Positions 1 to 11,730 of a stretch of DNA of 36,306 nucleotides are shown here, one piece after another (the stretch's first letter is position 1; each line of letters starts with the position of its first letter). The stretch lies in NCBI GenBank assembly GCA_025360105.1, contig JANYCT010000049.1:1-36306 (forward strand), read 5' to 3'. The position numbers and the translations under genes are program-made. This DNA comes from Actinomycetes bacterium (GTDB taxonomy: Bacteria; Actinomycetota; Acidimicrobiia; Acidimicrobiales; Ilumatobacteraceae). The notes beneath the pieces were generated by a model. It was not told the origin of the DNA. It saw only the letters and a list, made by a program, of their open reading frames with translations, and did not search any database.

Positions 1-82
1 GTGTGAGGGTCCGCGAACGGGTGCAGGGATCCCGCCATCGTTGGAGTTGTTCTACGACTTCGACGATGAGGAGATCCCTGCG

Positions 83-1387
83 ATGGGTGACGGTAGTGGC
101 CTGGCCGAGGCGATGCTCGGCCTTGATGGTGTGCGTGTGACTGGAGTTCGAGAAGCTGACGGTGAAGTGACGATCGAGGTCGAGACGATCGAACCGCGAG
201 CGTGGTGTCAGCGGTGCGGATGCCGTGCCGAATCACAGGATCGGATGTGGGTCGATGTCCGCGATCTGGAGTGCTTCGGTCGGCCGACGCGGCTGCGGAT
301 CTGGAAGCGGCGGTGGCGTTGCCGGGAGCCGTTGTGTTCGGCGCGGACATGGACCGAACCACTCGAGTTCTTGGATGCCCAGGTCGTGTTGACACGGCGT
401 ACAGGTGCCGCAGCGTGCCGGCGTGTCGGCGAGCTCGCTCGGCCGGTGTCGCAAGTCGCGGACGAGTTCGGGGTGTGCTGGGAGACGATCATGAACGCGG
501 TGGTCGAGCACGGCTCCCCGCTCGTCGACGACCCGGATCGGATCGGTCGGGTCCGCCAGCTCGGTGTCGATGAGACATCGTTCCTTCGCGCCAACCGACA
601 CCATCACACGATCTACGCAACCGGTCTCGTCGACTTGGAAGGCCGCCGCCTGATCGACATGGTCGAGGGCAACGCAGCTGTTGACCTGCGGACATGGACC
701 GCCAACGCGGACCCGGCCTGGCTCGCGGGGATCGAAGTCGTGGCCACCGATCTGGCCCAGTCGTTCCGGGCGGGGTTGTCGCCGCACCTCGATCACTGCG
801 TGCGGGTCGCCGATCCGTTCCATGTGGTTCGTGTCGCGAACCGTTGCCTCGACGCGGTGCGCCGCCGGGTGCAGAACGACACACTGAAACATCGCGGCCG
901 AAAGGACGATCCGCTCTACAAGATCCGCAAGCTGTTGCTCACCGGGTCCGAACGACTCAACGAACGCGGCCGCGATCGGATGCTGCTCGGCCTGCGCGCC
1001 GGTGACCCGAATGACGAAGTCGTCGGAGCCTGGCTCGCCAAGGAGAGTGTTCGAGACGTGTACCTCGCCGGCAACTACGACGACGCAGCGGTGCTGTTGG
1101 ACAAAGCCATCGCCGGCTGCCAAGCCGACGAGGTCGCTGAGATCCGATCGCTCGGCAACACGCTCGCGTCGTGGCGAACCGAGATCCTCGCCCGGCATTC
1201 GACCGGCGCATCGAACGGGCCGACAGAGGGCCTGAACCTGTGCGTGAAGAAGGTCAAGCGATGCGGCCACGGCTTCCGTCGATTCGACAACTACCGGCTC
1301 CGAGTCCTGCTCCACACCGGTGGCGTCACCTGGCCCGAACAACCCTCACCACCACGCATCCGAACACGCTGCTCCCCACTCAGATGA
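83..1387 (+). CDS. ISL3-family transposase
   Basis: This is a DDE transposase that cuts and moves its own insertion sequence. Numbering from a possible TTG start at 41, an N-terminal zinc-finger-like module has Cys56, Cys59, Cys94 and Cys99 (CX2C...CX4C), followed by a helix-turn-helix-like stretch. The catalytic acids fit Asp175 (GVDETSF), Asp235 (ATDLAQSF) and Glu394 (NGPTEGLN), the order seen in ISL3 transposases. I prefer the ATG at 83 (434 aa) because AGGAG lies at 69-73; the in-frame TTG at 41 would add 14 residues. No frameshift is visible and all three catalytic residues are present, so the enzyme may be active. Confidence 0.88.
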   Translation: MGDGSGLAEAMLGLDGVRVTGVREADGEVTIEVETIEPRAWCQRCGCRAESQDRMWVDVRDLECFGRPTRLRIWKRRWRCREPLCSARTWTEPLEFLDAQVVLTRRTGAAACRRVGELARPVSQVADEFGVCWETIMNAVVEHGSPLVDDPDRIGRVRQLGVDETSFLRANRHHHTIYATGLVDLEGRRLIDMVEGNAAVDLRTWTANADPAWLAGIEVVATDLAQSFRAGLSPHLDHCVRVADPFHVVRVANRCLDAVRRRVQNDTLKHRGRKDDPLYKIRKLLLTGSERLNERGRDRMLLGLRAGDPNDEVVGAWLAKESVRDVYLAGNYDDAAVLLDKAIAGCQADEVAEIRSLGNTLASWRTEILARHSTGASNGPTEGLNLCVKKVKRCGHGFRRFDNYRLRVLLHTGGVTWPEQPSPPRIRTRCSPLR

Positions 1388-1632: not shown

Positions 1633-2817
1633 TCACAGCACCTTCCCGAGTACATGACCGCCGGACACCGTGGGTTTGATGCGGTGGCGATAGTGCTTCT
1701 GGAGCATTCGGAGGTCCCGGTGGCCGAGTTGGTCGGCGACCTGCTCGATCGGCATGCCGGCATCGGCCATGAGGCTGGCGGCGGAGTGGCGGAGCAGGTT
1801 CGGGGTCCATGTCCCGTCAATGCCTGACGCGGCCACGACTCGGTTGAATTCGTTGCGTATTGCCTTCGGGTCGGTGGGTCGTCCGGTGGGCGAGGTGAAG
1901 ACCAGTCCCTCGACGTCGCACCAGTGCGTCCCCATCATCGCCCGCGTCGCGTTCTGCTGCGCGCGGTGTCGGGTGAGGGCGTCGAGAACGGGGTACGGTG
2001 CATCGAGGCTTCGGATACTGCCGGGTGTTTTTGTCTCGCCGACCGTCGCTGCGCCGGTCTGGTCGACCTTTCGAGCCCGCCAGACGTGGATGATCCCTTT
2101 GTCGAAGTCGATGTCATCCCATGCGAGGCCGGCCGCCTCGCCGGGTCTCAGTCCGAGGTAGAGCATCGTGACCCACATCGCTTCGAGGTCCGTTCCTGCG
2201 CCGGCTGTGAGGAGTTGTTTGGCTTGCGCGAGCGTCAGCGACTTGCCGGTCTTTGGGACGGCAGCGCATGCAGGTAGTTCGACGACGGTTGTGATGTTGC
2301 GTGTGACGAGATCTCGGCGCTGCGCCCACGACAACGCTTGGTTGAGCGTAGAACGCAGCTTGATGAGCGAACTGCGAGACAGCGCTCCGCGTGGCGTGCC
2401 TCTGCGTCCGGTTCGCTTCGTGGTAGCGACCATGGGCTGCGCTCGGCGAAGGAACGCTGCTTCGACCTGGTCGGCGGTCAAGGTACGCACTTTGAGAGAT
2501 CCGATTTCGTCGACGAGGATCGCGATCGCCCACCGGTGGCCAGCGAGTCGGGAGGGCGAGAGGTTCCGGTTGGGGAGTGCCTTGTCGGCCCACATGATCA
2601 AAAGGTCCTCGACGGTAATGGCTCCTGGGGTAACCGGTAGGCCGTCGTCGGCTGTTCGGCGAAGAGCGTTCAGTTGTTTGCGTGCATCGGTTTTGGTGCG
2701 GGCCGACACCGTGTGTGGCGTGCCGTCGACGATGATCCGGCCAACCCAGCGGTCACGATCCTCACGGTAAAACAGCGATCCTTCGCCGCGTCCTCGGCGA
2801 ATCTCACTTCGTGCCAA
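1633..2817 (-). CDS. tyrosine site-specific integrase
   Basis: This phage/ICE-type integrase would recombine an element with its chromosomal attachment site. The 394 residues show an N-terminal AP2-like arm-binding region (about 12-60), a core-binding SAM-like domain (about 68-180) and a catalytic domain (about 190-385). Catalytic positions fit Arg224 (LGLRPGEAAG), Lys263, Arg343 (NLLRHSA), His366 (LGHRD) and Tyr376 (KHYRHR). The first His of the usual HxxR motif is Asn340 here, a substitution that is tolerated in some family members. The TTG start at 2817 is supported by the strong purine run GGGAGGGGG about five bases upstream. The gene reads away from the tmRNA 3' fragment at 2989-3015, with its 5' end about 170 bp from it, as in integrases that target RNA genes. 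No excisionase is visible in the window. Confidence 0.9.
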   Translation of the reverse strand: MARSEIRRGRGEGSLFYREDRDRWVGRIIVDGTPHTVSARTKTDARKQLNALRRTADDGLPVTPGAITVEDLLIMWADKALPNRNLSPSRLAGHRWAIAILVDEIGSLKVRTLTADQVEAAFLRRAQPMVATTKRTGRRGTPRGALSRSSLIKLRSTLNQALSWAQRRDLVTRNITTVVELPACAAVPKTGKSLTLAQAKQLLTAGAGTDLEAMWVTMLYLGLRPGEAAGLAWDDIDFDKGIIHVWRARKVDQTGAATVGETKTPGSIRSLDAPYPVLDALTRHRAQQNATRAMMGTHWCDVEGLVFTSPTGRPTDPKAIRNEFNRVVAASGIDGTWTPNLLRHSAASLMADAGMPIEQVADQLGHRDLRMLQKHYRHRIKPTVSGGHVLGKVL

Positions 2818-3830: not shown

Positions 3831-5273
3831 ATGTTTTCTTCCGTGCGCGTCGTCCACGTGGCCGACCTCTCCGACACCGAACTTGCCTCGCTCGGCATCG
3901 CTCGCGGCGACACGCTGCAGACGGCTGAGTGGTTCGTTCGCCCCGATCCATTGCGTCCAGAAGCGGTGCGGATGCCCCGCGAAACGGCCGTGGTTGGTGC
4001 GTTCACCCACATCCGTGTGATCCAATCCTCGCTCGCTGCGATCGTGGCGACCGCCGGAGTTCGCTTTACCGATGTGCCGGCGATCGTCGAGTGCAGCACC
4101 ACCGACGGCAGCGTGATCGTCACTGCGATCGAACCCGATCGCCTGCGTAGCGTCGCCGAGCACCGCCGTTTCCTCGACCGCCTCGCCGCTCCGGCTGCGC
4201 GCCAAACCGGCAGCATCGGCGTGGGAATCGTCGGCTACGGGCCGTTCGGGGGGATGGGTTACACCCATGGGCTGGCGGCGACGGAGACTGACGGGCTTCA
4301 CCTCGCCGGTATCTGCGACACGAACGCCGAGCGGCGTCAGGCTGCACTGGCGGATTTTCCGGACGTCCGTGCGCACACCGAACTCGAATCGTTGGGCGGC
4401 GACGACAACGTCGGCGTGGTCATCGTTGCGACTCCGCCGGTGCTGCACGCCCCGATCGCCCTTGCGTTGCTGCGCGCCGGAAAGCACGTGGTTGTCGAGA
4501 AGCCGATGTGTCTCACGGCCGCCGACGCCGACATGCTGCTGAGCGAAGCCGCCGCCGTACACCGGACCATCACTGTGCACCAGAGCCGCCGCTGGGATGG
4601 CGATTACCTTGCGCTGCGACGGGCGATCGACGCCGGCACGATTGGCGACGTTTTCAACGTCGAGACCTTCGTCGGATCGTTCGAGCACCCGTGTCGCTGG
4701 TGGCACAGCGATGAAGCCCTCTCCGGCGGGGCGGTGTACGACTGGGGATCTCACCACATCGATTGGATCCTGCAAATATTCGGCGGGCCGCCAGACTCCG
4801 TGCGAGCGTCGTCACACAAGCGTGTGTGGCGCGACGTGACCAACTCGGACCAGATCGACGTACAGATGCGTTGGGCCGACGGGCGTGAAGCGCGGTTTAT
4901 CCAGAGCGATGTCGCCGCCATCCGTAAACCGAAGTTCTTCGTCCAGGGAACCGCAGGCACAATTGCAGCTGACTATCGACCGGTGGTCACCGACGAACTC
5001 GTCGCTGGCCGCGGCCATGTGCCGACCAGTTGGCACCACGCCGAGGTGGCCTCGACGTTGCGTGTTGCGCAGTACGAGCCGGGCTATGGAATCGTCGAGA
5101 TGACCTTGCCTCCGGTCCGCACGGCTGGTTGGCCTTTCCATCGGGCGCTTGCCGATCATCTACTGCTCGGCGAACCCAGCCCGGTGCCTGCAGAGCAGTC
5201 CCGTGACGTGGTTGCGGTGCTCGAACGTGCGCACCGATCTGCGGCATGCGGGGCAGCGGTGTCGAGTGCCTGA
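3831..5273 (+). CDS. Gfo/Idh/MocA oxidoreductase with an unrecognised N-terminal domain
   Basis: An NAD(P)-dependent oxidoreductase of the glucose-fructose oxidoreductase/inositol dehydrogenase/MocA family; substrates are typically sugars, inositols or sugar-amine derivatives. The Rossmann fold starts near residue 128 with GVGIVGYGPFGG, followed by EKPMC (about 223-227) with the conserved lysine. The C-terminal sheet domain has GGAVYDWGSHHIDW (about 299-312), supplying likely catalytic Asp/His residues. Residues 1-125 are not part of the family fold, and I do not recognise them. The total of 480 aa is about 120 longer than usual. The ATG at 3831 has only a weak ribosome site, and a GTG at 3843 is an alternative. 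It is the first gene of a four-gene operon; the next start is 4 bases after its stop. Confidence 0.88.
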   Translation: MFSSVRVVHVADLSDTELASLGIARGDTLQTAEWFVRPDPLRPEAVRMPRETAVVGAFTHIRVIQSSLAAIVATAGVRFTDVPAIVECSTTDGSVIVTAIEPDRLRSVAEHRRFLDRLAAPAARQTGSIGVGIVGYGPFGGMGYTHGLAATETDGLHLAGICDTNAERRQAALADFPDVRAHTELESLGGDDNVGVVIVATPPVLHAPIALALLRAGKHVVVEKPMCLTAADADMLLSEAAAVHRTITVHQSRRWDGDYLALRRAIDAGTIGDVFNVETFVGSFEHPCRWWHSDEALSGGAVYDWGSHHIDWILQIFGGPPDSVRASSHKRVWRDVTNSDQIDVQMRWADGREARFIQSDVAAIRKPKFFVQGTAGTIAADYRPVVTDELVAGRGHVPTSWHHAEVASTLRVAQYEPGYGIVEMTLPPVRTAGWPFHRALADHLLLGEPSPVPAEQSRDVVAVLERAHRSAACGAAVSSA

Positions 5274-5277
5274 GACG

Positions 5278-6219
5278 ATGAGCCAGCCGGTCACGATCGG
5301 CGTGCTCGGTGGCAGATCCTGGATCGCCAACGAAGCTGTGATCCCTGCAATCCACGCCAGCACCGGCGCCACGTTGGGAAGCATCGGTTCGCGCTCCGGT
5401 TCGATCGGCTACGCCGATGTGCTTGCCGATCCTTCGGTTGATGCCGTGTACATCGCGCTCCCGAACGATATGCACTTCGAATGGGTGCTGGCCGCCGCAG
5501 CAGCACACAAACACGTGTTGTGTGAGAAGCCGATCGGGGTTTCACACGCCGAAGTCCACGCTATGGCAGCGGCATGCGACGCCGCACGAGTGTTGCTGGT
5601 CGAGGCATACATGACACCGTTCCATCCTCGGAGCGCAACGATCGACGCATGCCTGCGTTCGGGTGAACTCGGCGAGATCCGGCATCTCGACGCTGCGTTC
5701 ACCTTCTGTCTCGCGCAGGTCGACAACTACCGCTGGTCGGCCGAGCATGGTGGGGGAGCGCTCCTCGATGTCGGGATCTACTGCCTCTCGCCGCTGCTGA
5801 CGGCAATGGGGGGGCCACCGTCGATAGTTGCAGCGCAGTCCACCGCTAGCGGCAACGTCGATGCCACCACGGCCGTCTGGCTCGAGTGGTCGACTGGAGC
5901 AACCGCTTCGGTGGTCACCTCGATCGAACTGGCCGAGCGTCAGTCACTGCTCGTCTGCGGTACCAAGGGCAGCCTCACCGTCGATCGACCGTTCACCCCC
6001 GGCGAGCAGGACACCTCGTTCTCGATCACTCGACCAGACGGCACGATCGAGCGCCGGACGACGGCTGGTGGCAACTGCTACCTTGCGATGATCGAGGCGT
6101 TTACCGATGCGGTGCGCGGGCGGACGATATGGCCACGACCCCTAGGTGAAGCGGTCATCATGGCCGAACTGTGCGACAGAATCCGCACAGCCGCCCTAGC
6201 AGCAGGAGCAACACCGTGA
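5278..6219 (+). CDS. Gfo/Idh/MocA oxidoreductase, second copy
   Basis: A shorter, standard-architecture member of the same family (313 aa). The nucleotide-binding segment begins at VTIGVLGGRSWIANEA, an altered dinucleotide loop (GGRSW instead of GxGxxG). CEKPIGVS carries the conserved EKP. HGGGALLDVGIYCLSPLL fits the active-site region of the C-terminal domain. The ATG at 5278 lies 4 bases after the previous stop. The frame stays open upstream to 5149, but that stretch overlaps the end of the previous gene and is unlike the family. Adjacent paralogues suggest either sequential oxidation steps or a heteromeric enzyme. The stop overlaps the next start in GTGA. Confidence 0.87.
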   Translation: MSQPVTIGVLGGRSWIANEAVIPAIHASTGATLGSIGSRSGSIGYADVLADPSVDAVYIALPNDMHFEWVLAAAAAHKHVLCEKPIGVSHAEVHAMAAACDAARVLLVEAYMTPFHPRSATIDACLRSGELGEIRHLDAAFTFCLAQVDNYRWSAEHGGGALLDVGIYCLSPLLTAMGGPPSIVAAQSTASGNVDATTAVWLEWSTGATASVVTSIELAERQSLLVCGTKGSLTVDRPFTPGEQDTSFSITRPDGTIERRTTAGGNCYLAMIEAFTDAVRGRTIWPRPLGEAVIMAELCDRIRTAALAAGATP

Positions 6220-7076
6220 CCTCATCGGAGCACATGGTCGAAGTCGCACCTGGTGTGCAACTTCGAATCATCGCCGACAACCTTGATGCGACTCAGGTCC
6301 CGTTTCTGCTCGTGCACGGCCTCGCCTCGAACGCCCGACTGTGGGACGGGGTCGCCGTTGTGCTCGCCGCCGCCGGCCATCCCGTAGTGGCGGTCGATCA
6401 ACGTGGCCACGGCCGGTCGAGCAAGCCCGATGGAGGCTACGGATTCGACACGATCGTCGCTGACCTCGTGGCGCTCATCGCATCGCTCGGATGGGTTCGG
6501 CCCGTCGTGGTGGGCCAGTCATGGGGAGGCAACGTCGTCGTCGAGCTTGGCGCGACCCATCCACATCTCGCCGGCGCGATCGCAGCCGTCGACGGCGGGT
6601 TCATCGAATTGGGCGATCGCTTCTCCAGCTGGGACGAATGTCGTGCAGCATTGGCGCCACCGCGACTCATCGGCACACCGGTCGCCACGATGGAACGATG
6701 GATTCGTGAGGGCCACTCGAGTTGGCCAGAAACCGGCATTGTTGGCTCGATGGCAAATTTCGAGGTCCGAGCCGATGGCACGATCGCACCCTGGCTCACC
6801 TTCGAGCGACACATGATGATCCTCGAGGCGCTCTACGCGCACCGCCCGTCGCAGCGGTACCCGCAGCTTGCCGTGCCGACACTGCTCATTCCTGCAGACA
6901 CAGGCGACGTGGCCTGGACGCACGACAAGAGCGCCGCCGTCGATGCGGCGCTGGCCCTGCTGAAACACGGGCGGGTGCGATGGTTCTCACCAGCCGACCA
7001 CGACATCCACGCGCAGCACCCGGTCGAGTTGGCCGAGGTATTGATTGATCTCTCACAACAAGGACGTGCTCGATGA
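6216..7076 (+). CDS. alpha/beta hydrolase
   Basis: A serine hydrolase of the alpha/beta fold, likely acting on an ester, lactone or similar bond. The oxyanion strand is LLVHGLASN. The nucleophile elbow is GQSWGG. A late Asp is in the ADTGD region, and the catalytic His fits ADHDIHAQHP near the C-terminus. The GTG at 6216 overlaps the upstream stop by 4 bases and is preceded by AGGAG. An ATG at 6234 is an alternative. The product is 286 aa, a normal family length, with no signal peptide, so cytoplasmic. Overlap on both sides (ATGA to the next gene) indicates strict co-translation. A lactonase-type step after a dehydrogenase would be chemically sensible, but this is inference. Confidence 0.88.
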   Translation: MTSSEHMVEVAPGVQLRIIADNLDATQVPFLLVHGLASNARLWDGVAVVLAAAGHPVVAVDQRGHGRSSKPDGGYGFDTIVADLVALIASLGWVRPVVVGQSWGGNVVVELGATHPHLAGAIAAVDGGFIELGDRFSSWDECRAALAPPRLIGTPVATMERWIREGHSSWPETGIVGSMANFEVRADGTIAPWLTFERHMMILEALYAHRPSQRYPQLAVPTLLIPADTGDVAWTHDKSAAVDAALALLKHGRVRWFSPADHDIHAQHPVELAEVLIDLSQQGRAR

Positions 7077-8380
7077 CCCGCCTGCTGACGATCATGGGAA
7101 GTGGTGAGACGGCACCGACGATGGTCAAGCCGCATCGCATGGTGTTCGAACGTCTCGAGGCAGCTGCGCCAGGTGCGGTGCCAGCCGTGTTCCTCGACAC
7201 GCCGTTCGGGTTCCAGGAGAACGCCGATGAGCTCTCTGCCAAGACCGTTGCCTACTTCGAGACGAGTCTGACCCGAACAATCGGCGTCGCCGGACTCCAG
7301 CGGCTCGAGACCACGAGCACACTCGAACGCGAGGCAGCGTTCACCCGTGTGCGTCTTGCGCAGTTCGTCTTCGCCGGCCCTGGCAGCCCCACCTACGCGC
7401 TCCGACAGTGGGCGGGCACGCCGGTTCCGGACCTCCTCGCTGACAAGCTGCGAACCGAGGGTGCCGTCACGTTCTCGAGCGCAGCTGCGCTCACGCTTGG
7501 CTTGGCAACGGTGCCGGTCTACGAGGTGTACAAGTCCGGCGCCGATCCGTACTGGCTCGATGGACTCGACCTGTTATCACCGTTCGGTCTGCCGGTGGCG
7601 GTGATCCCGCACTACAACAACGCCGAAGGCGGACATCACGACACCCGGTTCTGCTACCTCGGAGAACGCCGACTGGCGATGATGGAGCAACTGTTGCCCG
7701 ACGGTGCGTTCGTCCTGGGCCTCGACGAGCACACGGGGGTGATCCTCGACCTCGAAGCCGACACTGCGTCGGTCGTCGGTCTTGGCGTGCTCACGCTGCG
7801 TCGAGACGGGAGATCGACCGAGATCCGCGCCGGCGAGACGGTGCCCATCGACATGCTGCGCGCCGGCCCCGAATTCAGCTCGGTCTCATCGTCGGTACCG
7901 GTGTCGAGTGTCTCGACGATGGCCTCCGCCACGATCGCTGTTGGTCGGCAACCAAGCGGCGCGATATCTGGAGCGCCAGCGACACCGTCGTTGGCCGGCG
8001 ACGCGGAGCGGCTTGGAGCAATGTTTGACGAAGCGTTGGCGAGTCGCGATGCTGGTCGGGCCGTGTCTGCGGTGCTCGATCTCGACGAGGCGATCGTTGG
8101 TTGGTCGACAGACACGCTGCAAAGTGATGCCGCCACACGAGCCCGCGCATTGCTGCGTTCGATGATCGTCCGTCTCGGCGAGGCTGCGGTCGCAGGTCTC
8201 GCTGATCCGCGCTCGATTCTCGGACCGGTGATCGACGTGGCCCTGCACGTACGCCTCGAGGTGCGCGCCGCGAAGCGATACGACCTGTCCGACACGATCC
8301 GCGACGGCCTCGCCGCTGCGGGGGTTGAGGTGCGCGACACTCCAGATGGTCAAGTCTGGGAGCTTCTGCCGACCGCCTGA
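7073..8380 (+). CDS. S51/PepE-like protein fused to a CysRS-like C-terminal domain
   Basis: The protein has two parts. Residues 1-262 resemble the class-I-glutamine-amidotransferase-like fold of S51 peptidases (PepE, cyanophycinase): an N-terminal TIMGSGETAP, FVFAGPGSPTYAL near 99-110, and a Ser-containing elbow TFSSAAALTLG near 133-143 that could hold the nucleophile. Later come IPHYNNAEGGHHD (178-190) and GLDEHTGV. A Ser/Ala-rich linker (about 265-310) joins a helical module (about 311-435). Its tail, with RAAKRYDLSDTIRDGLAAAG followed by DTPDGQVWEL, matches the anticodon-binding end of cysteinyl-tRNA synthetase. No synthetase catalytic domain is present. It is the last gene of the four-gene operon, and its ATG overlaps the hydrolase stop. 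The substrate is unknown. Confidence 0.75.
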   Translation: MTRLLTIMGSGETAPTMVKPHRMVFERLEAAAPGAVPAVFLDTPFGFQENADELSAKTVAYFETSLTRTIGVAGLQRLETTSTLEREAAFTRVRLAQFVFAGPGSPTYALRQWAGTPVPDLLADKLRTEGAVTFSSAAALTLGLATVPVYEVYKSGADPYWLDGLDLLSPFGLPVAVIPHYNNAEGGHHDTRFCYLGERRLAMMEQLLPDGAFVLGLDEHTGVILDLEADTASVVGLGVLTLRRDGRSTEIRAGETVPIDMLRAGPEFSSVSSSVPVSSVSTMASATIAVGRQPSGAISGAPATPSLAGDAERLGAMFDEALASRDAGRAVSAVLDLDEAIVGWSTDTLQSDAATRARALLRSMIVRLGEAAVAGLADPRSILGPVIDVALHVRLEVRAAKRYDLSDTIRDGLAAAGVEVRDTPDGQVWELLPTA

Positions 8381-8424: not shown

Positions 8425-9264
8425 CTAGTGATGGCCAAGTCCGCCGACGTTGCGTCGGCCGCGACTGCCCGTCACCGTGAACACCACCAAGAACACCGTC
8501 GAAGCCATGAGGATGATGGTCGCTCCCGGCGACACGTCGATGTGGTAACTGAGCAGCATTCCCGTGAATCCGCACACGGCGCCGATGATCGGCGCGATCA
8601 TGAGCATTCTCGCGAACGAGTTGGTCATCATCCGTGCCGTTGCCGCCGGAGTGACGAGCATTGCACTGATCAACAGCACGCCCATGACTTTCATGGTGAA
8701 CAGGATCGTGATCGCCAGCATCAGCATCAGCAGTGCTTCCATTCGGGCGACGTTCACACCGGACACGTCGGCGACCTCGGGATCGAACGTGGCGAACAGC
8801 AAGTGGCGGTAGCACGTATAGATCACCACCACCGACAACGCACCCGCTCCAATCACTGCGATCACATCGGTTCCCCCGACGCCAAGGATCGAGCCGAACA
8901 ACACGGCGTCGATCGACCGCTTCGCCTGGCCGAACAAGTTCGACAACGCAAGGCCCATCGCGAATGAGGCCGTGGTGATCACCCCGATCGCCGCATCCGA
9001 GCCGATCTTGCCCCGGCGGGCCACCCGGCCGATCATCAACGCCGACAGCAAGCCCCACAACCCGGCGCCGAGATAGAAGTTCACCGACAGCACCGCGCTC
9101 GCCGCAGCGCCTCCGAAGATCGAGTGCGACAGACCGTGGCCGATGTAGCTCATCTGACGGAGCACGACGTACACACCGATCAGTCCACAGATCGCTCCTG
9201 CGAGTACGGCCACGATGATCCCGTTGCGGAAGAAGGCAAACTGAAAGGGCTCGAACAAGTTCAT
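8425..9264 (-). CDS. metal ABC transporter permease (ABC-3/ZnuB family)
   Basis: Membrane subunit of a zinc or manganese importer. About eight hydrophobic segments are visible across 279 residues. The N-terminal MNLFEPFQFAFFRNGIIVAV and the later SHSIFGGAAASAVL and LLISAMLVTPAATARM are typical of the ABC-3 family. The C-terminus ends in GGLGHH, a small His tail. It is the last gene of the three-gene unit and overlaps the ATPase gene by 4 bases. It converges with the 7073-8380 gene across 44 bases that show no strong terminator. Confidence 0.93.
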   Translation of the reverse strand: MNLFEPFQFAFFRNGIIVAVLAGAICGLIGVYVVLRQMSYIGHGLSHSIFGGAAASAVLSVNFYLGAGLWGLLSALMIGRVARRGKIGSDAAIGVITTASFAMGLALSNLFGQAKRSIDAVLFGSILGVGGTDVIAVIGAGALSVVVIYTCYRHLLFATFDPEVADVSGVNVARMEALLMLMLAITILFTMKVMGVLLISAMLVTPAATARMMTNSFARMLMIAPIIGAVCGFTGMLLSYHIDVSPGATIILMASTVFLVVFTVTGSRGRRNVGGLGHH

Positions 9265-10058
9265 GAGGTTGCCAAGGGGGTGTCGGTGACCAACAGCAGT
9301 CCTCCGTGCTCGAGCACTTCCATCGGTGCGCCGTAGGTGCGCTCGAGAACCTGTGGAGTGAGCACGTCACGTGGGCTCCCGATCGCAATGAGCTCACGGT
9401 TGACGCACGCGATCTTTGGCAGATGTGTCGCCAGGCCGTTGATGTCGTGCGTCGTCAGCACCACAGCCATGCCGGCGCGGTGCAGATCGGTCAACAGGTG
9501 CACAACCTCGTGGCGGGTGCGTACGTCGACACCCGAAGTCGGCTCGTCGAGCACCAAGAGATCGGGCCGCCGGTGAAGCGCGCGGGCGAGGAAGACCCGC
9601 TGTTGCTGGCCGCCGGACAGTTCGCGAATGTGGCGACCTCCGAGACCCGCGAGTCCTAACTGTTCAAGCACGGCCGACACGTCGTGACGTTCGCTTGCTG
9701 TGGCCCACGGTCGACGAATCGACGACGACCGCGACATCAGCACCACCTCGCTCACGGTGATTGGGAAGTTCCAGTTCACCGTCTCCACCTGCGGCACGTA
9801 TGCCACACGCCGATCGGGCTCGCGTTCCACGGTGCCGATTGTGGGGGACAGGCTGCCGAGGATGATCCGCAGCAGCGTGGTCTTGCCCGAACCTGATGGC
9901 CCGATGATGCCGAGGAACGAACCGGCCTCGATCGAGAGATGGATGTGATCGAGCACGACGGGACCGCCGTAGCTGTGTGACACGCCAACGACCTCGACGA
10001 GTGAACGCGCCGAAGGTGTCACCGCGCCTACATCTGTGCGGTCGTCGATGCTCGTCAT
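9261..10058 (-). CDS. metal ABC transporter ATP-binding protein
   Basis: The ATPase that drives the neighbouring permease. It has Walker A GPSGSGKTT (about 53-61), the signature LSGGQQQRV, Walker B LLVLDEPTSGVD and the switch-region TTHD. Its 265 residues fit ZnuC/MntB-type ATPases. An N-terminal extension of about 18 residues precedes the first strand. It overlaps both neighbours by 4 bases (9261-9264 and 10055-10058), so the transporter is one translational unit. Confidence 0.94.
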   Translation of the reverse strand: MTSIDDRTDVGAVTPSARSLVEVVGVSHSYGGPVVLDHIHLSIEAGSFLGIIGPSGSGKTTLLRIILGSLSPTIGTVEREPDRRVAYVPQVETVNWNFPITVSEVVLMSRSSSIRRPWATASERHDVSAVLEQLGLAGLGGRHIRELSGGQQQRVFLARALHRRPDLLVLDEPTSGVDVRTRHEVVHLLTDLHRAGMAVVLTTHDINGLATHLPKIACVNRELIAIGSPRDVLTPQVLERTYGAPMEVLEHGGLLLVTDTPLATS

Positions 10059-11134
10059 TGTGGATACACCGCAGTGTCAACGTTGACATCGCTGATATCG
10101 GTTGCCTTGAGCGCAGACGCGTCTCCACCGAGCGAGTCGACCATCGTGATGTAGTCGAACTGCATAAGGCCGAGGAACGAGTGGCCCGGCTCGCCAGGTT
10201 TACCGGGCAGGTCGTCGTCGCGCAGCACGTCCACGTACTTGACACCGGTCTCGGCGCCGATCTGTTTGAGCACCGGGCTCGGGAACACCTCTGATCCGAA
10301 GATGGCGGGCACCCCGGTCTTACGTACCTGCGTGATCAGGTCGGCGACTTCTTTCGCGGTTGGTTCGTCGAAGTTCGACGGCTGGATGGCGCCGATCACG
10401 GTCCAGCCGTAGTGCCGTGCGAAATAGGCGTAGGCGTCGTGGTACGTGAGCAGCTTGCGTTGATTCGCGGGCACGGTGGCGGTTGCGGTGGCCATCGCAG
10501 CGTCGAGTCCGTCGATCCGGGCGATGTAGGCAGCCGCGTTGTTGCGATAGGCGCCGGCGTTGGTCGGGTCCATGCGAACGAGTACGTCTCTGATGATCTC
10601 GGCGTACTTCTTTGCCATGGGCGGGTTGGTCCACAGGTGCGGGTTCGGTTTGCCGCCCTCGATGGGGAATGAGAAATCGTAGATGTAGTCGGCGACGGGC
10701 AGGATCGCCGTACCCAATTCGCAGAGCACGGCTCCGTTCGGGAGGTTCTTCGCAGCGAGGTCCTTGGTTGGTTCTTCGAGTTTCAACCCATTGGCAAACA
10801 ACACGTCGGTCTTTGCGAGGGCAGCTGCAACGCTCGGCGCCGGCTCGAACGTGTGAGAGTTGGTGCCTTCGGGGACGAGTCCGGCGATGTCGGCGTGGTC
10901 GCCGGCGACGTTGGCCACGATGGAAGTGATCGGAGCAACGGTCGAGCCGATCCGAAGTCGCTTTCCCGCCGCGATCGGTGTGCCGGTGTCGCAGGCTGCG
11001 CGAGCCGAAGCCTGAGCGTCGTTCGCCGCCTTGCCCGCCGTCGCAGTGCCTGAGGTGGATCCGGAGTTGGCGCTGCATGCCGTCAGGCTCAACGCGATGC
11101 CGATGCAGATCGTCATTGAAGCTCGAGAAATCAT
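10055..11134 (-). CDS. metal-binding lipoprotein of the ABC importer (ZnuA/MntC family)
   Basis: Cluster-9 substrate-binding protein that captures zinc or manganese outside the membrane. The ATG at 11134 gives a lipoprotein signal ending in LSLTAC, with Cys at about residue 20; an upstream start at 11167 would place 11 unlikely residues before it. Metal-ligand regions fit TNSHTFEPAPS, NPHLWTNP and YHDAYAYFARHYG, with GSEVFPSP in place of the more usual E-x-N/Q-x-SP. It lacks the His-rich loop of many ZnuA proteins, so manganese is possible, but the neighbouring Fur-type regulator favours zinc. It is the first gene of the minus-strand unit, divergent from that regulator. GTTGCAAC at 11158-11165 is a small palindrome 24 bases upstream of its start. 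Confidence 0.9.
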   Translation of the reverse strand: MISRASMTICIGIALSLTACSANSGSTSGTATAGKAANDAQASARAACDTGTPIAAGKRLRIGSTVAPITSIVANVAGDHADIAGLVPEGTNSHTFEPAPSVAAALAKTDVLFANGLKLEEPTKDLAAKNLPNGAVLCELGTAILPVADYIYDFSFPIEGGKPNPHLWTNPPMAKKYAEIIRDVLVRMDPTNAGAYRNNAAAYIARIDGLDAAMATATATVPANQRKLLTYHDAYAYFARHYGWTVIGAIQPSNFDEPTAKEVADLITQVRKTGVPAIFGSEVFPSPVLKQIGAETGVKYVDVLRDDDLPGKPGEPGHSFLGLMQFDYITMVDSLGGDASALKATDISDVNVDTAVYPQ

Positions 11135-11188
11135 GTCTGCGAACTTATCGCAGGCTGGTTGCAACAAGGCGAGTCGCCGACGCAGGTC

Positions 11189-11256
11189 ACATCAAGCCAA
11201 ACTTCACATCGAGCCAAACTTCGCATCGAGCCAAACGTCGCGTTGAGCGGGCCGAC
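11189..11256. repeat. 17-bp tandem repeats between the metal importer and the Fur-type regulator
   Basis: Three near-identical 17-bp units lie at 11189-11205, 11206-11222 and 11223-11239, with core CATC(A/G)AGCCAAAC. A degenerate fourth follows at 11240-11256. They fill the centre of the intergenic space between divergent starts at 11134 and 11290. A repeated operator for the adjacent regulator or for another factor is possible. They do not have the 7-1-7 AT-rich palindrome of classical Zur boxes, so the role is open. Confidence 0.85.
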
Positions 11257-11289
11257 ATGAGCCAGAAATCACGAATGGTCCTAGTCTGA

Positions 11290-11730
11290 GTGGTCGTGAC
11301 CGGCTCCGACGCTATCGATCGCACCGTGCAAGCGATCCGTGAACACGGTGGTCGCGTGACCGATCAGCGCAAGGCGATTCTTCGTGTTCTCTTCGACGAG
11401 TCTGACCACGTGACGGCTGACGAACTTGTCCGTCGCGTGAACAGCGCACTTCCCGACGTCCATGTGACAACCGTATATCGCTTCCTCGACACGCTCGAGG
11501 AGATGGGCCTAGTCGCCCACGTACACCTCGGGCACGGTCCGGCGGCCTATCACCTCACCACGCATCGTCATGCGCACGTGGTGTGCGATGGATGCGGAAC
11601 GATCGAGGTGATCGACTCCTCGACAATCGATCGTTGGTCATCCGAACTGCGCCGACAGACCGGGTTTCAGCTCACCGAACAGCACTTCGCTTTCGCCGGA
11701 CGCTGCAGCCGGTGCGCCGGACCAAGGTAG
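11290..11730 (+). CDS. Fur-family regulator, probably Zur-like
   Basis: A metal-dependent repressor. The winged helix covers about 10-80, with recognition helix HVTTVYRFLDTLEEMGL. The dimerisation/metal domain has THRHAHVVCDGCG (about 91-103) and a second pair CSRC (139-142), giving the four-Cys structural zinc site of Fur/Zur proteins. The length of 146 aa is normal. The GTG at 11290 is used here; another GTG at 11296 is possible. Divergent placement from a zinc/manganese importer suggests that it represses that operon when metal is plentiful. I prefer Zur to Fur or PerR because of the transporter. Confidence 0.88.
   Translation: MVVTGSDAIDRTVQAIREHGGRVTDQRKAILRVLFDESDHVTADELVRRVNSALPDVHVTTVYRFLDTLEEMGLVAHVHLGHGPAAYHLTTHRHAHVVCDGCGTIEVIDSSTIDRWSSELRRQTGFQLTEQHFAFAGRCSRCAGPR

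Follow-up and report, generated by a model that had tools for sequence, protein, structure and literature searches.

The DNA analyzed here is a 36,306-nucleotide stretch (the window; contig JANYCT010000049.1 of assembly GCA_025360105.1), derived from a member of the Ilumatobacteraceae within the Actinomycetota. It encodes on its forward strand a 435-residue fusion protein, in which an amino-terminal half resembling serine hydrolases of the S51/cyanophycinase group (N-half) is joined to a carboxy-terminal half of the type found in cysteinyl-tRNA synthetase (CysRS). The open frame starts with an ATG at position 7073, which overlaps the stop codon of the upstream gene as ATGA. An AlphaFold2 model based on a 57-row alignment of the family yielded two confident domains, with a mean predicted local distance difference test score (pLDDT) of 85.0 and a predicted template-modelling score (pTM) of 0.77. 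The features of the locus are as follows:

6171 to 7076, forward strand: α/β-hydrolase gene (PF00561, 8.8e-22), overlapping the fusion gene by four bases
7060 to 7064, forward strand: AAGGA, resembling a ribosome-binding site by sequence, eight bases ahead of the start
7073 to 8380, forward strand: whole fusion gene, 435 amino acids, S51/cyanophycinase-like hydrolase with CysRS-type tail, based on the open frame and its relatives
7073 to 7864, forward strand: N-half, residues 1–264, class-I-amidotransferase-like serine-hydrolase fold, based on structure and profile matches
7865 to 7987, forward strand: low-complexity linker, residues 265–305, with pLDDT below 50 at residues 269–300
7988 to 8206, forward strand: three-helix bundle, residues 306–378, the DALR-like part of CysRS, based on profile alignments
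8207 to 8365, forward strand: CysS_C anticodon-binding hairpin and β end, residues 379–431, based on PF23493 and superposition on 3sp1

The mean identity over the 57 rows was 63% for the N-half and 55% for the C-half, as compared with 13% for the linker; both domains are conserved and the linker drifts freely. We regard the two-domain architecture of the protein as nearly certain.

The frame represents a real gene, as it is conserved in other genomes. Among 41 genomes searched, the host included, 19 contained a match at E ≤ 1e-3, which was nearly full length in the host and in 16 others; the copy of G025 was split across two contigs, and the match in G026 was the end of a CysRS frame only. A scan of named genomes yielded at least 594 pattern-matching stretches, at least 587 of them confirmed, and the detailed work on relatives was carried out on the best 80 of these. 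Both halves were present in 78 of the 80, spanning residue 1–4 to at least residue 424, with the two others (L035, L052) cut by contig ends. The 57-row alignment comprises the window protein and 56 sequences picked from 75 accepted frames (78 loci entered); the three remaining loci were excluded only because their frames read past the natural stop. From the phylum, 396 genomes were drawn evenly and 357 of them had some match; the matches listed included the N-half in 29 of these genomes and otherwise fell in the C-half part of the model, where CysRS genes match, some of these frames having been read. According to their record labels, some of which are plainly wrong for metagenome-assembled genomes, the closest carriers among the best 80 belong to the Acidimicrobiaceae, Microthrixaceae and Ilumatobacteraceae, and more distant ones to Phytohabitans as well as, in the plasmid collection, Streptomyces and Nonomuraea. 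The plasmid collection contained seven matching records, four holding most of the protein and three only its C-terminal end. Phage-borne mobile spread was rejected, as the phage collection gave no match among 50,697 records.

Across all fetched loci, with some genes counted twice, 135 of 139 frames with an N-half also held the tail. Two of the four others were cut by contig ends (L052, L022), and the remaining two (L135, L176) are one gene of genome G235. In this divergent relative, the gene starts at a contig border and its stop codon directly follows the N-half, leaving no CysRS tail; tail-less relatives thus exist and are rare among the loci fetched. An 820-residue frame at L041, considered as a further fusion, turned out to be a run-on after a disturbed end. 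Both annotated records seen, from two Streptomycetaceae, name the product a hypothetical protein, and in a literature search with poor coverage of subscription journals we found no description of such a fusion and none joining cyanophycinase with cysteinyl-tRNA. The family is widespread in bacteria and apparently undescribed.

Foldseek analysis of the N-half model returned as top matches 6nqc (E 4.6e-13), a peptidase from an acI-B1 actinobacterium, dipeptidase E and cyanophycinase. Structural alignment with VIA-align resulted in a Z score of 24.7 for 6nqc, with a root-mean-square deviation (rmsd) of 2.8 over 234 residues, and in Z scores of 23.2 for cyanophycinase 3en0, 23.0 for 7uqv and 20.3 for PepE 1fy2; absence from these lists was not counted as evidence. 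Likewise, the N-half profile matched 6nqc (E 3.5e-7) and reached two ordinary S51 proteins of related genomes (E 3.2e-12 and 8.6e-10), which themselves score 63 and 59 bits with the Peptidase_S51 family (PF03575). The cyanophycinase model TIGR02069 matched 28 of the 57 rows at E ≤ 1e-3 (best 5.8e-8), with 18 and 24 bits in the two members shown against a cut-off of 126.6, and PF03575 matched six rows at the same threshold (best 4.8e-6), the window protein remaining unmatched by it even at E ≤ 1. Fold and profile confirm over residues 1–264 the class-I-amidotransferase-like serine peptidase fold that an initial annotation of the sequence had placed at residues 1–262. Its designation as S51/PepE-like holds for the fold group, the nearest named relatives being cyanophycinase and 6nqc rather than PepE.

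The profile alignment to 6nqc delineated the putative active site:

7478 to 7480, forward strand: Ser136 codon, aligned to the nucleophile Ser of 6nqc (GCSAGA), Ser in 57 of 57 rows
7610 to 7612, forward strand: His180 codon, aligned to the His of the 6nqc PHF motif, His in 57 of 57 rows

Besides Ser136 and His180, the polar residues Glu12, Asp42, Asn50, Glu151, Lys154, His189, Asp190, Asp218 and His220 are invariant in all 57 rows, and Glu151, Asp190 and Asp218 are among the invariant acids that could supply the third, acidic triad residue. PMC11078827 describes a Ser-His-Asp/Glu triad for characterised S51 enzymes. The catalytic serine had been expected near residue 135; we take the invariant Ser136 as the candidate nucleophile, since 35 of the 57 rows have Ala at position 135. 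The surrounding nucleophile elbow follows the pattern [FM]-[AS]-S-A-A-A and reads FASAAA, FSSAAA or MASAAA in every row. The N-half is likely a serine-type hydrolase.

For the C-half, searching the tail profile against all PDB chains yielded five CysRS sequences as the sole significant matches (E 1e-10 to 1.4e-5), followed by importin-5 at E 0.49, and the link to CysRS was seen by sequence profiles in both directions as well as by fold. The Pfam family CysS_C (PF23493) matched 43 of the 57 rows at E ≤ 1e-3 and scored 28–41 bits in six of six relatives, above its 23-bit cut-off. The window protein itself scored 20.0 bits, below that cut-off, and the predicted assignment of its own tail to CysRS is drawn from these relatives. 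Folded alone, the tail reached a pLDDT of 89.4, and Foldseek ranked CysRS 1u0b first (E 1.3e-3, probability 1.00) with an rmsd of 15 and a template-modelling score of 0.37 over the whole tail, the large rmsd indicating that the DALR-like and CysS_C parts are set at another angle in the model. Of the last 55 residues, 51 superpose on CysRS 3sp1 with an rmsd of 1.9 and a Z score of 8.1. The DALR-like bundle is of a generic fold and had no DALR match in Pfam in any of the 57 rows; profile alignments run through it, to CysRS 8qhp along profile positions 10 to 128 and, for the relative L097, to TIGR00435 positions 343–464. As many unrelated helical chains outscore CysRS for the helical part of the tail, the DALR fold match carries little weight on its own. 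The protein contains no synthetase catalytic domain (a HUP domain with HIGH and KMSKS motifs), since its N-half adopts another fold and CysRS models were matched only at their C-terminal ends. Hence the remaining structural proposals of the initial annotation are supported, namely a CysRS DALR-like and C-terminal region at residues 311–435, here located at about 306–431, a low-complexity linker ahead of it and the lack of a synthetase core. Neither the profile search of the C-half nor the predicted structures of both halves, which match the S51/cyanophycinase group and CysRS, refuted this assignment, and CysRS is closer to the C-half than its paralog MshC, the host's MshC-like frame lacking such a tail.

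The generic three-helix bundle and the single tail-less fragment of G235 would be compatible with a passive relic that aids only folding or solubility. Eight tail columns are, however, invariant in the 57 rows, and among the uncut genes examined only that of G235 lacks the tail, rendering such a relic very unlikely.

In E. coli CysRS, Arg423, Arg427, Trp432 and Asp436 interact with G34 of tRNA-Cys, as described in PMC12684709. The corresponding codons of the fusion gene are:

8252 to 8254, forward strand: Arg394, equivalent to Arg423 (G34 hydration network), kept in 57 of 57 rows
8264 to 8266, forward strand: Arg398, equivalent to Arg427 (hydrogen bond to G34), kept in 56 of 57 rows
8279 to 8281, forward strand: Tyr403, equivalent to Trp432 (stacks on G34), aromatic in 57 of 57 rows
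8291 to 8293, forward strand: Asp407, equivalent to Asp436 (hydrogen bond to G34), kept in 57 of 57 rows

This contact alignment comprised the 57 fusion tails and 27 CysRS (30 taken, three dropped by the frame filter), and in the latter the same four positions exhibited Arg in 26, Arg in 26, an aromatic residue in 27 and Asp in 27. Some other positions that hardly vary in CysRS, and that are not named as G34 contacts, have changed in the fusion family: Ala426, Ala in 25 of 27 CysRS, is Ala in 27 and Val in 27 of the 57 fusions; Ala435, likewise Ala in 25 of 27, is Ser in 42 of 57; and Glu450, Glu in 23 of 27, is Arg in 51 of 57. The conservation of the contact residues suggests that the tail binds tRNA.

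Based on these data, we tentatively favor a hydrolase that would use its CysRS-type tail to bind tRNA-Cys, a reading that is plausible while falling short of probable. The N-half would be a presumably cytoplasmic serine hydrolase of S51/cyanophycinase fold with Ser136 and His180 as its active-site core, connected by a floppy linker to a tail that may have been acquired long ago from CysRS. Gripping the anticodon arm of a G34 tRNA, most likely tRNA-Cys, through the same residues as CysRS, the tail would bring the hydrolase close to an acyl or peptidyl group that the bound tRNA carries or that passes through it. Its job might be trans-editing, with the clearing of an incorrect or stalled acyl group, or the cutting of a tRNA-derived cysteine conjugate; the further step, a family of tRNA-Cys-guided hydrolases reading the anticodon and removing an acyl or peptidyl group formed on tRNA-Cys, is on balance rather unlikely. 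The enzyme might often work beside the α/β-hydrolase encoded just upstream. A homolog of that hydrolase gene immediately precedes the fusion, in the same orientation, in 65 of the 79 genome_contigs loci that could be tested, a count leaving out L035, where the upstream sequence is too short. The same contact-residue evidence would serve a sensor, in which charged or uncharged tRNA-Cys switches the hydrolase with cysteine supply. tRNA-synthetase-like domains do act in some regulators, such as HisZ and Gcn2, and the catalytic pocket is fully conserved and separable by the linker. Since the annotated neighbor families, among many unannotated neighbors, contained no cysteine or sulfur-metabolism gene, we consider such a sensor quite unlikely.

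Several observations weigh against recognition of tRNA-Cys by a hydrolase of this type. First, the constant non-contact residues Arg439, Asp451 and Gly455 are likewise kept in the fusion; judged by eye, all four contact positions are at least 95% kept, as compared with three of seven other CysRS-constant ones. The contact set does not stand out significantly, because other constant residues are kept too and the positions are too few for significance. Second, in the contact alignment the CysS_C part carries a mean net charge of −2.65 in the fusion versus −0.93 in CysRS. Third, Arg423 and Asp451 are missing in 25 of 25 CysRS read from the host's bacterial family, a count leaving out G005, where CysRS was not matched, and G011, where the frame could not be read. 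These CysRS presumably charge tRNA-Cys without them, so that the two residues are perhaps not strictly needed. Fourth, a scan of 84 loci and of the window revealed no tRNA-Cys gene, one tRNA at L097 having an unread anticodon. Fifth, the elbow of the fusion departs from G-x-S-A-G, the nucleophile elbow motif of the S51/cyanophycinase group, seen as GCSAG in 6nqc and in the two ordinary S51 paralogs; we therefore class the N-half as S51-like rather than as an S51 member with that activity. Finally, the α/β-hydrolase gene does not adjoin the fusion in 14 of the 79 genome_contigs loci and in four of four plasmid-collection loci.

The charge data, together with the frequent partner gene, are also what would be expected if the tail were a protein–protein or self-association module, with the CysRS hairpin serving as a docking surface, for instance for the α/β-hydrolase, and the enzyme hydrolyzing peptides or amides in the ordinary way, with no tRNA involved. 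The commonest residue flips the sign of the charge relative to CysRS at three positions, from Asp to Arg at 431 (38 of 57), from Glu to Arg at 450 (51 of 57) and from Arg to Glu at 457 (27 of 57), and CysS_C is found on glycosyltransferases as well (see below). Docking alone would not demand, however, that the G34-contact set be kept almost without exception over deep divergence. We consider docking a close rival and a serious possibility, ranking after tRNA-Cys targeting, which, judged from the sequences, may account for the tail most economically, a preference held with less than even confidence.

The host CysRS lacks Arg423, Asp451 and Trp458, all three of which are kept in the fusion, raising the idea that the tail substitutes in trans for a weakened anticodon domain. 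Arg423 and Asp451 are lost from CysRS in 14 of 14 same-family genomes with the fusion and in 11 of 11 without it, and in none of three carriers from other families. Being independent of the fusion, these losses represent a lineage trait that leaves trans-compensation unsupported, and we consider it hardly credible. Nor did the data support the host's own CysRS as the source of the tail, as the host CysRS tail scored lowest (17 bits) of 19 tail-profile matches, obtained from 30 loci read, 11 of which yielded no frame through the filter. In a tree resting on few columns, and with CysRS tails all but one from Actinomycetota, the 57 fusion tails formed one group apart from 28 CysRS tails with a support of 100/100.

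A search with the CysRS model in 31 genomes resulted in six matches confined to its C-terminal end, one family member (G064) and five GT2 glycosyltransferases with an N-terminal CysS_C:

L170, 3739 to 4659: GT2 glycosyltransferase with N-terminal CysS_C
L171, 2426 to 3391, reverse strand: GT2 glycosyltransferase with N-terminal CysS_C
L172, 2501 to 3433, reverse strand: GT2 glycosyltransferase with N-terminal CysS_C
L173, 2511 to 4031: GT2 glycosyltransferase with N-terminal CysS_C
L174, 2184 to 3665, reverse strand: GT2 glycosyltransferase with N-terminal CysS_C

The GT2 domain PF00535 scored above its cut-off in four of the five and just below it in L173 (22.7 bits), and the CysS_C modules, from five Actinomycetota genomes and with the final Trp lost, scored 19.6–45.1 bits, L174 lying under the cut-off. 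As the tree, built here from short rows, places these modules within the CysRS tails (supports 83–90), they probably represent a recruitment separate from the fusion, and CysS_C was probably passed to other enzymes on two or more occasions.

The surroundings of the gene in the window comprise:

41 to 1387, forward strand: ISL3-type transposase, at the left end of the window
1633 to 2817, reverse strand: phage-integrase-family gene, at the left end of the window
3831 to 5273, forward strand: GFO/IDH/MocA oxidoreductase (PF01408, PF22725), syntenic in near relatives
5149 to 6219, forward strand: second GFO/IDH/MocA oxidoreductase, its true start probably downstream of 5149, syntenic in near relatives
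8425 to 11730, convergent: zinc/manganese-type ABC transporter (permease, ATPase and ZnuA-like binding protein), with a Fur-family gene beyond

Synteny of the transporter extends to many relatives. The α/β-hydrolase resembles many PDB hydrolases equally, its substrate not being indicated. Ten neighbor representatives in other loci were mixed, including COX15, DUF2017, PNPOx, luciferase-like, sulfatase and B12-binding families, others, and one without a match; these neighbors indicate no pathway. In eight of the 84 loci, a tRNA-Glu gene starts on the same strand at most 200 bases past the end of the fusion. These tRNA-Glu(TTC) sites are located at L056 1720, L065 9470, L069 5594, L079 9384, L088 9210, L090 9294, L095 9266 and L106 9239; the loci are deep family members, L056, L069 and L088 carry also a tRNA-Asp further on, and in L090 the end of the fusion frame overlaps the tRNA-Glu start.

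Synthetase pieces outside synthetases often mark tRNA-linked chemistry or regulation, and we know of no trans-editing or tRNA-dependent hydrolase with such a build. The fusion, present in many Actinomycetota and usually beside a second hydrolase gene, hints at an enzyme not known so far that may act on a transfer RNA or be directed by one. What would otherwise pass as a domain of unknown function can, given the retained G34-contact residues, be framed as a simple question of binding by named residues. If a tRNA-Cys-guided hydrolase holds true, then together with the CysS_C glycosyltransferases it would point to the CysRS anticodon reader as a reusable targeting part.

Compared with known systems, the whole N-half shares its fold with cyanophycinase (TIGR02069, 3en0) and 6nqc at Z scores of 23–25, and the Ser, the His of the PHxx motif and a 'DE.T' motif of 6nqc align with it. 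The identity to the N-half is 16–19%, however, and the solved chains comprise 259–266 residues, to which the fusion adds the CysRS tail. PepE (S51; 1fy2, 6a4r) shares the fold (Z 20.3) and the Ser-His core, with a Z score below that of 6nqc; the fusion family gave no match to a PepE model in the searches made, and the two ordinary S51 paralogs matched weakly. MshC, the CysRS paralog of mycothiol synthesis, descends from CysRS according to PMC2922099. It retains the catalytic part, of which the fusion protein has no counterpart, and the host's MshC-like gene, with TIGR03447 as its best NCBIfam match and the CysRS model matched only at positions 1–320, lacks the tail, so that the fusion is the reverse case. 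With E. coli CysRS (1u0b), the fusion shares the DALR-like and CysS_C region including the G34-contact residues, differing by the missing HIGH/KMSKS domain and by the flipped charges at 431, 450 and 457. In the GT2 glycosyltransferases the module is N-terminal with no DALR part seen, yet they resemble the fusion in carrying CysS_C on a non-synthetase enzyme, with the G34-contact residues kept in five of five.

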